Shown: in pieces, positions 28,025 to 34,869 of the stretch | Layout: each line of letters starts with the position of its first letter | Numbering within the stretch: the stretch's first letter is position 1 | NCBI GenBank assembly: GCA_018831055.1 | Contig: JAHJRE010000017.1 | Span: 1-56,560 of the forward strand | Origin: Bacteroidota bacterium | Lineage (GTDB): Bacteria; Bacteroidota; Bacteroidia; Bacteroidales; B18-G4 | Direction: 5' to 3' | DNA length: 56,560 nucleotides | Translations under genes and position numbers: made by a program | The notes under the pieces: generated by a model | Database searches by the model: none | Told to the model about the DNA's origin: nothing | Seen by the model: the letters and a program-made list of their open reading frames with translations, nothing else

Positions 28025-28960
28025 ATGGGTGCAACGATTGACCTGAAGCGGCTGCAGCAGTTCGGATCTCTTGAATTGATCGCCAGGCAGGTGGTCGAAG
28101 GGTTTATCACGGGATTGCATAAGAGTCCTTTCCATGGTTTTTCCGTTGAATTTGCAGAACACCGTGCTTACAATACAGGAGAATCGGTGCGTTACGTCGA
28201 CTGGAAACTCTTCGGCCGAACCGATAAAATGTTTGTCAAGCGCTTTGAGGAGGAAACAAACCTGCGCTGCCAGATCGTGATCGACAATTCCTCTTCTATG
28301 TATTTCCCTGTCATGGATGAACTGAAAGTGGATAAACCCAATAAAATCACCTTTTCTGTTTATGCGGCAGCGGCCATGATCGAATTGCTCAGAAAACAAA
28401 GGGATGCATTCGGATTGAGTATCTTCTCATCAGAAATTGAGCTTGCAACCGGTGCACGCTCTACCACTGTTCATGCCCGCTACCTTTTTTCAGAGATGGA
28501 GAAAATGCTGGTTGCAGGTCGTCCGAAAGTGCGAAAGAGTACCTCTGTTGCTGAATCTCTGCACCGTATTGCGGAGATGATACACAAACGTTCACTGGTG
28601 GTAATTTTTAGTGATATGTTCGACCAGGAAGATGATCCCGGTGCTTTGTTTTCTGCACTGCAGCACCTCCGGCATAACAAGCATGAAGTGGTGCTCTTCC
28701 ATGTTACGGATAAAAGCCATGAACTTGAGTTTCGCTATGATAATCGTCCCTACCGTTTTGTGGACCTTGAAAATGGAGAGGAGATAAAACTCAATCCGCA
28801 TGATGTCAGAAAGGACTACACCCGTGCCGTAGATAGTTACAGGAAGGAGCTTATGCTACGTTGTGGCAGTTACCGGATAGATTTTGTTGAGGCTGATATA
28901 AGTCGTGGGTTTGAACAAATCCTCCTTCCATATCTTGTTAAACGGTCGAAAATGTTCTAA
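28025..28960 (+). CDS. DUF58 / vWA-like domain protein
   Basis: A 311-residue protein with the DUF58 signature GFSVEFAEHRAY, TGESVRYVDWKLFGR and VKRFEEETN, followed by a vWA-like fold whose metal-site loop reads VIDNSSSM (Asp87-Ser91, a DxSxS variant). A second strand, LVVIFSDMF, carries the matching acidic loop. DUF58 proteins usually sit beside a MoxR ATPase and vWA/BatA-type proteins; none of these flank it here, where trxA (with terminator) is upstream and a convergent gene is downstream. The 3' end overlaps the convergent gene by 4 bases. The role, perhaps assembly or stress-related, is unproven. Confidence 0.88.
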   Translation: MGATIDLKRLQQFGSLELIARQVVEGFITGLHKSPFHGFSVEFAEHRAYNTGESVRYVDWKLFGRTDKMFVKRFEEETNLRCQIVIDNSSSMYFPVMDELKVDKPNKITFSVYAAAAMIELLRKQRDAFGLSIFSSEIELATGARSTTVHARYLFSEMEKMLVAGRPKVRKSTSVAESLHRIAEMIHKRSLVVIFSDMFDQEDDPGALFSALQHLRHNKHEVVLFHVTDKSHELEFRYDNRPYRFVDLENGEEIKLNPHDVRKDYTRAVDSYRKELMLRCGSYRIDFVEADISRGFEQILLPYLVKRSKMF

Positions 28961-31041
28961 AGCCTTATTCTTAGCTGTATCCGGGCTTCCATGGAGGTTT
29001 CACGGTTTGTTTGATTGCTTCCCCCGCCTCCGGGTTTGCGCAGATTTCGTGTTAATGACGTTTTAAACCAGAGCTCAGTGCCCCGCGTTATACCCGTTTT
29101 TATTAGCAGGTAACACCTTAACCCGCTGCCATAACTGGCAGGTATGGAAAAAGCATATAATACATCATGTTCGTACTGATATATTCTGGAGTTGTAGTCA
29201 TCCGTGTCAAAAAGCATCCAACGGAAGGTTATGGCAAGTGATTTGTCGGGAGGACGATATAGAAGATCCTGCGATATACTCACACCTGTACTGGTTACCC
29301 TGGCTTGTCCTTCCGGAATACTCACCATGTTGCTTCCGAGCTTCGTGCGGACACTAAAGGAAGAACTGGCTGCATAAGCAAAACCCAGGTTGATTTTCCA
29401 GGATTCCTGGCTATGTAGCGTGTGAAGGTATTCCTGGGTGGTACTTCTGTTTTTTTCACTATAGCCGTAGTTTGCAGATAAGCTAAGATCTGCATTTCGG
29501 TTGATTTCATGAACAATGCTGATTTTATATTTCCGGGATTGGGATGGAGCATCGGTTCCAAATTTTAGCCAGGGATACCACGCCAGGTCTATATATGCGT
29601 TTAATGTCCATTTGGCAATCACATTCAGCAATACACCGGCATATACTCCTTGTTCACAGCCTCCCGATGCGGTCCGGTATGGATTGTTCAGGAGATTATC
29701 GTAGCGAAGGGAGAAATTTCGATAGAGTATCGATAGCTCTCCACGGTTGAGAAATACGGTAAGACTATGCAACATAGCCCAGTAACGGAATGACATCAGG
29801 GAAAACTCGCCGATGAGCACAACCTTGTTCAATGGTTTAATTAACCAGTTGATTCCTGCATTGTTTATGGCTTTTCCACTGAACCTGAATTGTTTGTATG
29901 GCTGATTTGACTTCTCCAGGCCGGCAGAAAGTTCCGTTCGGGTTACTGTAATTCCGGCCTTGTACCAGTGCCCTGCGTGTTTTAGGTTTATCCCCATCGT
30001 GGTCATAGTAATAGCATCTCTGTTCATGATCTCTCCCGGAGTACGATGGTAGCCGCCTTCCTGCAAAGAGGATATCATGAGACCGGTCCCGGCTGTTTCC
30101 CAATCGTCCGACAGATTCGCATCTCTGGTCATCCTCGACCAGAATGCCGTGGTTTCCCAGTTATGCCATTGGATTGAAGTGGCAATACCACGCATCAGGC
30201 GGTTTTCTTCCGATGATGCCGATGATTTAATACCCTGGCCTCTTTTGATGATCTGGGAAGGCATGGAAGGCGCCGACCAGTGGTTGGATGTCCACAACGT
30301 AAGCCCTTGTCCTGCCTGTACATGAAAATCCCCTACAACAATTTTCTTAATAAATTTCCAATTCTGAAAGGCAATAAACCCCGTATAGAAGTCGAAGCCG
30401 GGTTTGCGGAACTCCTTCAATGTGTCGGGGATCTCTCCGGCAAAGAATGGTTCTCCGGCATCCTTTTCTGCCAGGAATCCTGCAGATAAGTGATTTCGGT
30501 ATTCTACCGTGGTTTTTAGATAATATTTATCAGGAGAACCCAGATAATCCGGTTCTTCTTTCTGGGATTTGCCATTCCCTGAAGATAAAAGGTAATTTCT
30601 GGAATATCTGCCTATTAGATAGGCTTTGGTTTTTCTGGTTTTGGCAAGGACAGGCAATTTCATGTCCTTTTCTCCATTGAGCGAAACAAAAGGTTGTATT
30701 TGTTCCAGGATGGCGGTGTTGAATCCGGGAACAGCCAGGATCTCATTGAAGCTGAGTAGTTCACCGTATTCTTCTCTGTATTCCAGGAAATGGCTGATCT
30801 GGTAGTCATTGAGCAGTGTTAGTGTTTCCAGTTCCTTGGCTGTGGCTTTATTCAGGATAATAGGTCTCTCAATCATTGCCGACAGGTCTTCTAAAATCTC
30901 ATAGGGGATCTGAGCTTCCAATCCGTCAGAGGCCATCTCTTCCAGGTTGTTCTCCAATTCCTGCAGGCCTTGCTCCTGCTGTCCTTTAGCAGATATGAAA
31001 AGCAGGATCAGATTTAGCGATATGAAATAGATACTTTTCAT
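28957..31041 (-). CDS. Helix-hairpin-helix domain outer-membrane barrel protein
   Basis: A 694-residue protein with a signal peptide (cut near SAKGQ). It has a ComEA-like helix-hairpin-helix pair at about residues 60-120 (LNKATAKELETL, YGELLSFNEILAVPGF), then about 550 residues of alternating strands that look like a large outer-membrane beta-barrel (aromatic girdle, final residues ARIQLRIRL). It is coupled to the upstream PorV-like gene by an ATGA overlap. HhH domains bind DNA in ComEA, so a role near DNA uptake is possible, but HhH folds also occur in secretion proteins. No established name fits. Confidence 0.72.
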   Translation of the reverse strand: MKSIYFISLNLILLFISAKGQQEQGLQELENNLEEMASDGLEAQIPYEILEDLSAMIERPIILNKATAKELETLTLLNDYQISHFLEYREEYGELLSFNEILAVPGFNTAILEQIQPFVSLNGEKDMKLPVLAKTRKTKAYLIGRYSRNYLLSSGNGKSQKEEPDYLGSPDKYYLKTTVEYRNHLSAGFLAEKDAGEPFFAGEIPDTLKEFRKPGFDFYTGFIAFQNWKFIKKIVVGDFHVQAGQGLTLWTSNHWSAPSMPSQIIKRGQGIKSSASSEENRLMRGIATSIQWHNWETTAFWSRMTRDANLSDDWETAGTGLMISSLQEGGYHRTPGEIMNRDAITMTTMGINLKHAGHWYKAGITVTRTELSAGLEKSNQPYKQFRFSGKAINNAGINWLIKPLNKVVLIGEFSLMSFRYWAMLHSLTVFLNRGELSILYRNFSLRYDNLLNNPYRTASGGCEQGVYAGVLLNVIAKWTLNAYIDLAWYPWLKFGTDAPSQSRKYKISIVHEINRNADLSLSANYGYSEKNRSTTQEYLHTLHSQESWKINLGFAYAASSSFSVRTKLGSNMVSIPEGQARVTSTGVSISQDLLYRPPDKSLAITFRWMLFDTDDYNSRIYQYEHDVLYAFSIPASYGSGLRCYLLIKTGITRGTELWFKTSLTRNLRKPGGGGSNQTNRETSMEARIQLRIRL

Positions 31042-31901: not shown

Positions 31902-32561
31902 ATGAAATTGCAAAATGTCCTCACCTTCCTGAAAGATTTAAAGGAAAATAATCATAAAGAATGGTTTGACGCCAACCGCAGCAGCTATGAAGATGCAAGG
32001 CGCAGTTTCCTGGAATTCACGGCAAAGCTTATAGAAGGACTATCCGGCATGGATCCTGCACTGGCGGGATTAAAACCCAAGGATTGTGTCTTCAGGATCT
32101 TTCGCGATGTTCGGTTTTCCAATGATAAATCACCCTATAAAACAAATTTTGGTGCGTTTTTTAGCAAGGGTGGAAGGAAAAAGCCTTTTGCCGGGTATTA
32201 TGTTCATCTGGAACCGGGTGGGTCATTTGCCGGAGGTGGTATTTACATGCCCCCGGGCGATGTACTGAACCTGGTCAGAAAGGAGATCTATTACAATCCG
32301 GAGAAATTTAAGTCTATCCTATACTCAGATGACTTTCGTCAGGAGTTTGGTGAGATGTTCGACCATAAGCTACAACGTCCGCCACAGGGCTTTGATAAGA
32401 GTTTTGCCGATATGGAACTGCTGAAATACAAGAGTTATGTTGTAGGAAGGAATGTGGATGACAATACTGCCGGTGGGGAGGATTACGCTGCTCATGTGCT
32501 GAATTCTTACCGGGTGATGAAACCCCTGGTAGATTTTCTTAACCAGGCTCTGGATCAATAG
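31902..32561 (+). CDS. DUF2461 family protein
   Basis: A 219-residue cytoplasmic protein with no signal peptide. DUF2461 signatures: FLKDLKENNHKEWFDANR at the start, FRIFRDVRFSNDKSPYKTNF, GYYVHLEPGGSFAGGGIY, and RPPQGFDKS followed by LLKYKSYVV. The length matches the family. The function is not known. The gene stands alone, divergent from the PorV-like gene (36 bases between their starts). Confidence 0.92.
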   Translation: MKLQNVLTFLKDLKENNHKEWFDANRSSYEDARRSFLEFTAKLIEGLSGMDPALAGLKPKDCVFRIFRDVRFSNDKSPYKTNFGAFFSKGGRKKPFAGYYVHLEPGGSFAGGGIYMPPGDVLNLVRKEIYYNPEKFKSILYSDDFRQEFGEMFDHKLQRPPQGFDKSFADMELLKYKSYVVGRNVDDNTAGGEDYAAHVLNSYRVMKPLVDFLNQALDQ

Positions 32562-32856
32562 AAACCGTTAACTTTTTTGTTACTGCCGTATCCTGATTTC
32601 TGCTTTTTTTCAGCAGGAAGTGATATTATTTTTGTTAGTGTCGATTGGTTAATTAATTTGTTAATCCAGTTCTTTGAAAGCCCCTGAAGATTGCTTTTTT
32701 CATAATTCTAGGTTTTTTTCATAATAATTGTGCTATTGCTTTTTTTTCATGACTAATTCACACCATCAATTCTTCAGGGGCTGCCTTTTGGTTACGAAAA
32801 AAAAGAGGTCGCTTTTCAGGTAAAGCGGCCTCTTTTATTTTTAAGGATGAACCAAA
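32562..32856. other. Gene-free gap with structured sequence
   Basis: The 295-base gap between convergent DUF2461 and gyrB is AT-rich. It contains a TATTTTTG box (32627-32634), an 11-base inverted repeat GCCCCTGAAGA/TCTTCAGGGGC (32680-32690, 32771-32781), three T-rich direct repeats ending in TTTTTTCAT between those arms, and the gyrB terminator (32797-32839). It may hold a small RNA (see findings). Confidence 0.5.
32797..32839 (-). terminator. Bidirectional-looking terminator after gyrB
   Basis: AGAGGTCGCTTT pairs with AAAGCGGCCTCT (one wobble) around a 6-base loop. On the minus strand it is followed by eight T residues, and on the plus strand by TTTTATTTTT. It ends gyrB and could also end a plus-strand transcript. 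Confidence 0.85.

Positions 32857-34869
<2,013 letters not shown>

Follow-up and report, generated by a model that had tools for sequence, protein, structure and literature searches.

The window analysed here, by which we mean the whole stretch of 56,560 nucleotides, comes from an uncultured Bacteroidales bacterium and carries a gap (32562–32856) between a DUF2461 gene and the convergent gyrB, a gene named in the earlier reading and present in 59 of the 60 relatives that were searched. An earlier note, made from the sequence of the window, had read this gap as a stand-alone small RNA built from a promoter-like box, an inverted repeat, T-rich direct repeats and a two-way terminator. These elements are all present (that is, TATTTTTG at 32627–32634, a perfect 11-bp inverted repeat with a span of 102 bases at 32680–32690 and 32771–32781, three T-tract direct repeats inside it that begin at 32695, 32713 and 32740, and the terminator at 32801–32836) and, consistent with its remark that no protein frame fits, the gap is free of open reading frames of at least 40 amino acids. 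To these we add a pair of direct repeats at 32564 and 32585, spaced by 21 bp. The features are as follows.

31902–32561, + strand: DUF2461 gene (PF09365; Pfam E 4.1e-71), 5′ neighbour
32564–32598, + strand: tandem direct repeat ACCGTTAACTTTTT / GCCGTATCCTGATT, two copies offset by 21 bp (starts 32564 and 32585), by spacing and sequence a putative operator of LytTR type
32603–32634, + strand: promoter, CTTT (−33-like), 20 nt, TATTTTTG (−7 box, 32627–32634), by alignment
32638–32840, + strand: small RNA, predicted from promoter, stem and terminator
32643–32671, + strand: possible 5′ hairpin with the invariant UUGGUUAAUU element, by fold and alignment
32680–32690, + strand: 5′ arm of the closing stem
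32695–32703, + strand: anti-start repeat 1, UUUUUUCAU
32713–32722, + strand: anti-start repeat 2, UUUUUUUCAU
32726–32739, + strand: AAUUGUGCUAUUGC, putative second site of pairing, with hardly any variation in five genomes
32740–32750, + strand: anti-start repeat 3, UUUUUUUUCAU, then GACUAA
32771–32781, + strand: 3′ arm of the closing stem, by inverted repeat and covariation
32801–32836, both strands: terminator-like hairpin, two-way, common to the RNA and gyrB
32857–34821, − strand: gyrB, convergent neighbour

The terminator-like hairpin has 15 bp and T-runs on both strands, and terminator-like sites number 2 against 0.3 in shuffles. Transcription of the plus strand would begin at 32637–32642 and end at the terminator (about 32840) or shortly past the closing stem (about 32785), giving an independently transcribed RNA with a predicted length of about 150–200 nt, the gene for which is single-copy in its own genome. 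A reverse-strand peptide starting ATGAAAAAAAGC... was discarded, as its frame is, by eye, not maintained between relatives. Elsewhere in the window, a 694-aa open reading frame (28957–31041, − strand) has a helix–hairpin–helix motif (PF12836) near its N terminus and is adjoined by a 275-aa exported open reading frame without a Pfam match.

A covarying stem closes a large loop

Conservation and covariation of the two arms in relatives had been set beforehand as the test on which the small RNA would stand or fall, and both arms are conserved and covary. In a structural alignment of seven sequences (G054, with a loop too reduced, was left out), the 11-bp stem, or 12 bp if A32679–T32782 is counted, is paired in 77 of 77 cells, and 5 of the 11 pairs show double compensatory changes, including C–G to U–A (columns 48, 49 and 51) and U–A to C–G (column 52). 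The whole 20-pair structure has 94% of its cells paired, and shifting it by one column lowers this to 55–58%. For the full 203-nt strand the predicted fold has −56.4 kcal/mol (z −5.1), a value that 0 of 200 shuffles reached; this is partly due to the terminator, as the fold without it has a z of −2.65 and is equalled by 1 of 200 shuffles. Five of the seven sequences have the whole helix of the 5′ hairpin, which shows zero compensatory changes and is therefore not established. In G001 the stem runs at once into T7, and in G005 into A–T5, both on the plus strand and without a separate terminator, which fixes the strand of the RNA. The covarying stem holds out a loop of about 80 nt that is mostly single-stranded, although in the ensemble modelled for the family sequences its motifs are unpaired to only 57–88%, a point against the reading proposed below.

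In a DNA search that covered 60 genomes, the own genome (G000) among them, the region was returned from G001, G002, G003 and G005, which all belong to the same family. G006 has the same design 3′ of gyrB, and G004 has it at a distance of about 0.8 kb from this gene; six family homologues at or near gyrB are thus known, and in G001, G002 and G005 the RNA has a full-length DUF2461 gene next to it. G007 and G008, 75%-complete genomes of the same family, gave no match in the DNA search. G054, from another family of the order, has next to gyrB a reduced form whose loop measures only about 22 nt; this form ranked first (E 0.023) in a model search of 20 gyrB loci with filters off. An order-wide model scan (393 genomes; 8 candidates scored per genome, strict filters), which is a weak negative, gave only matches from the own family and one chance match. 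A weak model match in G357 (E 0.0019), where such a promoter and stem are missing, was attributed to chance, and the weak DNA matches L007, L008, L009, L010, L011 and L013 were judged to be unrelated, all by eye except L011, which is the opposite strand of the place of L008. Among 32 pattern matches in a collection of 84,980 species, 5 show this RNA's promoter and loop and come from Bacteroidales metagenome-assembled genomes (MAGs) that are apparently the same as G001, G002, G003, G005 and G006; the other 27 were judged by eye to be chance. The exact stem arms had zero matches in viral contigs. The 13 Rfam matches at the locus up to E 5 include none near a family cut-off, in keeping with the earlier statement that no known family was recognized, and the literature, covered in part, yielded no published description of such an RNA. 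On the basis of this comparison, the candidate becomes a well-supported RNA gene, and we consider it very likely to be a real, lineage-restricted small RNA.

Promoter and upstream direct repeats

The lack of a clear −33 box, named beforehand as a weakness, is answered in part: a CTT(T/G) element stands 20 nt 5′ of the −7 box and is kept, together with a TAnnTTTG box, in the window and the six family homologues. The core CTTT-20-TATTTTTG is conserved, with TATATTTG as the −7 box in G002 and a degenerate box in G054, and 5′ of it lie two ACCGTTAACTGATT-type direct repeats; all eight aligned promoters have two ACCGT(T/A)AACTGATT-like repeats in common. In the window, the 9-bp repeat cores (32564–32572 and 32585–32593) are separated by 12 bp and end 9 bp before CTTT. 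A published account (PMC6193735) describes LytTR operators as direct repeats of about 9 bp with 11–13 bp between them, about 10 bp 5′ of the promoter, a spacing to which the repeats at 32564 and 32585 conform, and mentions Bacteroides operons with LytTR repeats such as ACCGTAAATCA before TATCTTTG. We infer from this arrangement that a putative LytTR-type regulator controls the RNA. Within 393 kb of the own genome, this putative operator is without a second of its kind; the genome has one other near-consensus repeat pair. A crude motif search in a sampled part of the genome found no LytTR protein or LytTR-like open reading frame. The TAACTGA heptamer repeats, which are described (PMC4679880) as forming arrays of up to 43 copies, were considered and rejected as a parallel: they are direct repeats just before start codons and not a promoter operator like the one here.

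This other near-consensus pair, the tandem CCGTTAACTGATC-N8-CCGTTAACTTATT, lies at G000:C145:28745–28778 (L112:1501–1534), with a TATCTTTG box and then a long exported open reading frame (MKNKILPFRYLVYVIGLSFF...) after it; the regulator of the RNA probably controls this site too.

Complementarity of the loop to start codons

The word UUUUUUCAU, which occurs three times in the loop (0 of 5,000 dinucleotide shuffles), is found in two or three copies in G002, G003, G005 and G006 and in one exact copy in each of G001 and G004, and is kept in G006 and G004 though most other loop sequence is gone. Its complement, AUGAAAAAA, is the 9-base gene start that occurs most often in our sample (10 of 261 genes); 21 of the 261 begin with ATGAAAAA. 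With genes taken from simple open-reading-frame calls (ATG, at least 100 amino acids) in samples of three genomes, 9-nt complements of the loop lie over the start codons of 28 of 261 genes in G000 (reached by 4 of 500 shuffles), 28 of 211 in G002 (0 of 500) and 16 of 107 in G006 (7 of 500). The excess vanishes if T-runs are kept and the other letters shuffled, the observed counts being reached by 0, 0 and 1 of 300 such shuffles, respectively. For 10-nt matches it holds in G000 and G002 and is not significant in G006 (reached by 77 of 500 dinucleotide shuffles). The excess rests mostly on UUUUUUCAU and, like the retention of this word, the stem, the promoter core, the direct repeats and the RNA gene itself, it emerges from sequence comparison. 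Duplex energies of the whole loop against all genes are weakly better than in shuffles (130 of 261 below −15, versus 96 ± 19 in 20 shuffles). A pairing of the 5′ element UUGGUUAAUUAAU with a common leader motif TTAATTAACCAA was rejected, as 0 of 261 sampled genes carry the motif.

Candidate targets

The second place in the own genome that the DNA search returned (G000:C23:8068–8120; E 7.6e-4) is, on its opposite strand, the start of the following gene.

L113:6563–8086, − strand: gene (C23) for a 507-aa exported protein, which begins with a stretch resembling a signal peptide and is without a Pfam match

Its leader and first codons contain about 54 nt complementary to the loop, including the exact 14-nt GCAATAGCACAATT, and the exact complement of AAUUGUGCUAUUGC is present in the leader. 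The duplex (−39.9 kcal/mol; 0 of 200 shuffles) ranks first among 261 sampled starts, a rank that is not independent since the gene was picked for its match. Among the six relatives, the protein has homologues only in G002 (34% identity) and G005 (28%), with no match in G001, G003, G004 and G006, all of which carry the RNA. More independent than the rank is the leader of the G002 homologue, which keeps TAGCACAATT and AGTCATGAAAAA and pairs at a level equalled by 3 of 200 target shuffles and 6 of 200 loop shuffles; such a leader is absent from the G005 homologue. By eye, the C23 and G002 leaders also share TTGAAATGCATT, which is not complementary to the RNA, and the conservation of the leader may therefore partly have another cause. 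We regard this gene as the best candidate target.

The leader pattern TAGCACAATT-N3-33-ATGAAA has 5 matches outside the RNA locus (G000 1, G001 0, G002 3, G003 1 and G005 0) in the five genomes in which the RNA carries AAUUGUGCUAUUGC, or nearly so in G001, and none in G004, G006 and G054. Three of the five stand at starts of exported-protein open reading frames and two do not. Given a background of 64 matches in the 294 genomes other than G000 (0.22 per genome), about 1.1 would be expected in five genomes, and the support is modest. In G002, an exported-protein gene (MKLLARITLPIVLWFF...; L145, G002:C195:52425) has a leader with TAGCACAATT and ATTATGAAA and forms a duplex of −27.4 kcal/mol with the G002 loop (0 of 200 shuffles), the gene having been picked for its motif.

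Proposed model and alternatives

The reading that we favour by a little over even chances is that of an independent plus-strand small RNA that is switched by a LytTR-type regulator and blocks AUGAAAA(AA) translation starts by antisense pairing of its loop, with the C23 gene as the best candidate target. After the regulator has switched the RNA on, the covarying stem would present a loop carrying UUUUUUCAU (three times here) and AAUUGUGCUAUUGC, which could pair with the AUGAAAA(AA) starts of mRNAs and, in preferred targets, additionally at leader sites; such pairing would keep ribosomes from starting and thereby block translation initiation. As the loop is complementary to the starts of many messages for secreted proteins, the RNA probably lowers their translation. 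A broader form of this idea, which we put forward tentatively and would give perhaps one chance in a few, is a class-level switch in which the tandem anti-start word UUUUUUCAU lets one signal lower translation of all AUG-AAA-AAA mRNAs, many of them for exported proteins.

An alternative that we hold to be rather doubtful is that the loop titrates an RNA-binding protein, perhaps one with an RRM such as RbpB, in the manner of CsrB, the likeness to start codons then reflecting the site preference of the protein. Near-identical motifs are indeed repeated in a stem-closed loop, and Bacteroides RbpB is reported to bind small RNAs (PMC11697453); however, the CAU after the U-run is kept, shuffles that preserve T-runs lose the start-codon excess, and the likewise kept AAUUGUGCUAUUGC has its exact complement in a leader. 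If the RNA were an antisense partner dedicated to a single gene family (that of the 507-aa exported protein) and not a regulator of broad reach, this would account for the 54-nt complementarity with its exact 14-nt match and for the leader partly kept in G002, yet four genomes retain the RNA and have no match to the protein, which makes this account improbable.

The view that the gap serves gyrB or DUF2461 as a composite terminator or 3′ element, and has no product of its own, would suit a convergent gap that ends in a two-way terminator, but sits badly with a conserved promoter and operators, conserved loop motifs and an RNA kept about 0.8 kb from gyrB in G004, and we judge it very unlikely. 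We give hardly any credence to a divergent 6S RNA, to which a length near 200 and an own genome without a Bacteroidales-1, 6S-Flavo or 6S match (one of these searches was silent in control genomes too) would point: no 6S family matches the locus up to E 5, and 6S RNAs form a long, interrupted duplex with an open-promoter bubble, as opposed to the short 11-bp stem and large U-rich loop here.

To our knowledge, small RNAs of Bacteroidota outside Bacteroides have hardly been described, and most Bacteroidota lack Shine–Dalgarno sites. If true, the favoured reading of a loop that blocks translation starts would mean antisense control without a Shine–Dalgarno target, its seed being the complement of the start codon and lysine codons, and it could connect a regulator that binds direct repeats with the exported proteome.

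Comparison with known systems

RNAIII is a regulatory RNA driven by the LytTR regulator AgrA, with loops that act on translation starts. The RNA described here would resemble it as a regulatory RNA under a LytTR-type regulator (here putative) with a loop directed at translation starts, but it is much smaller, unrelated in sequence and has no coding part. LhrC, a multi-seed small RNA, similarly repeats a single short seed several times within unpaired regions; its C-rich seeds aim at Shine–Dalgarno sites, whereas the U6CAU seeds here would be directed at the start codon itself. Bacteroidales-1 (RF01693), 6S-Flavo (RF01685) and 6S (RF00013) are of the same length class, and two of them also belong to the phylum, but none matches the locus or the genome.

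Closest in working are GibS and FopS of Bacteroides thetaiotaomicron, which, according to their descriptions (PMC7366714, PMC11697453), repress by pairing around the start codons of mRNAs. They are likewise intergenic RNAs of Bacteroidales, with start-codon pairing that is predicted here; GibS, at about 145 nt, is of the same length class, and the canonical sigma-ABfr promoters of FopS can be counted as a further likeness. The seeds of GibS and FopS lie at the 5′ end and FopS is multicopy, whereas here the repeats lie in a stem-closed loop and there is one copy; GibS (RF04182) scores 23 bits at the locus against a cut-off of 115, and there is no sequence or structure homology. Given its own promoter and terminator in an intergenic position (as judged from sequence and conservation), its conserved secondary structure and its complementarity to mRNAs made elsewhere (in three genome samples and the C23 leader), all of them marks of a trans-acting small RNA, we read this RNA as a new one of that kind, which may work as GibS and FopS do without being a member of their family.
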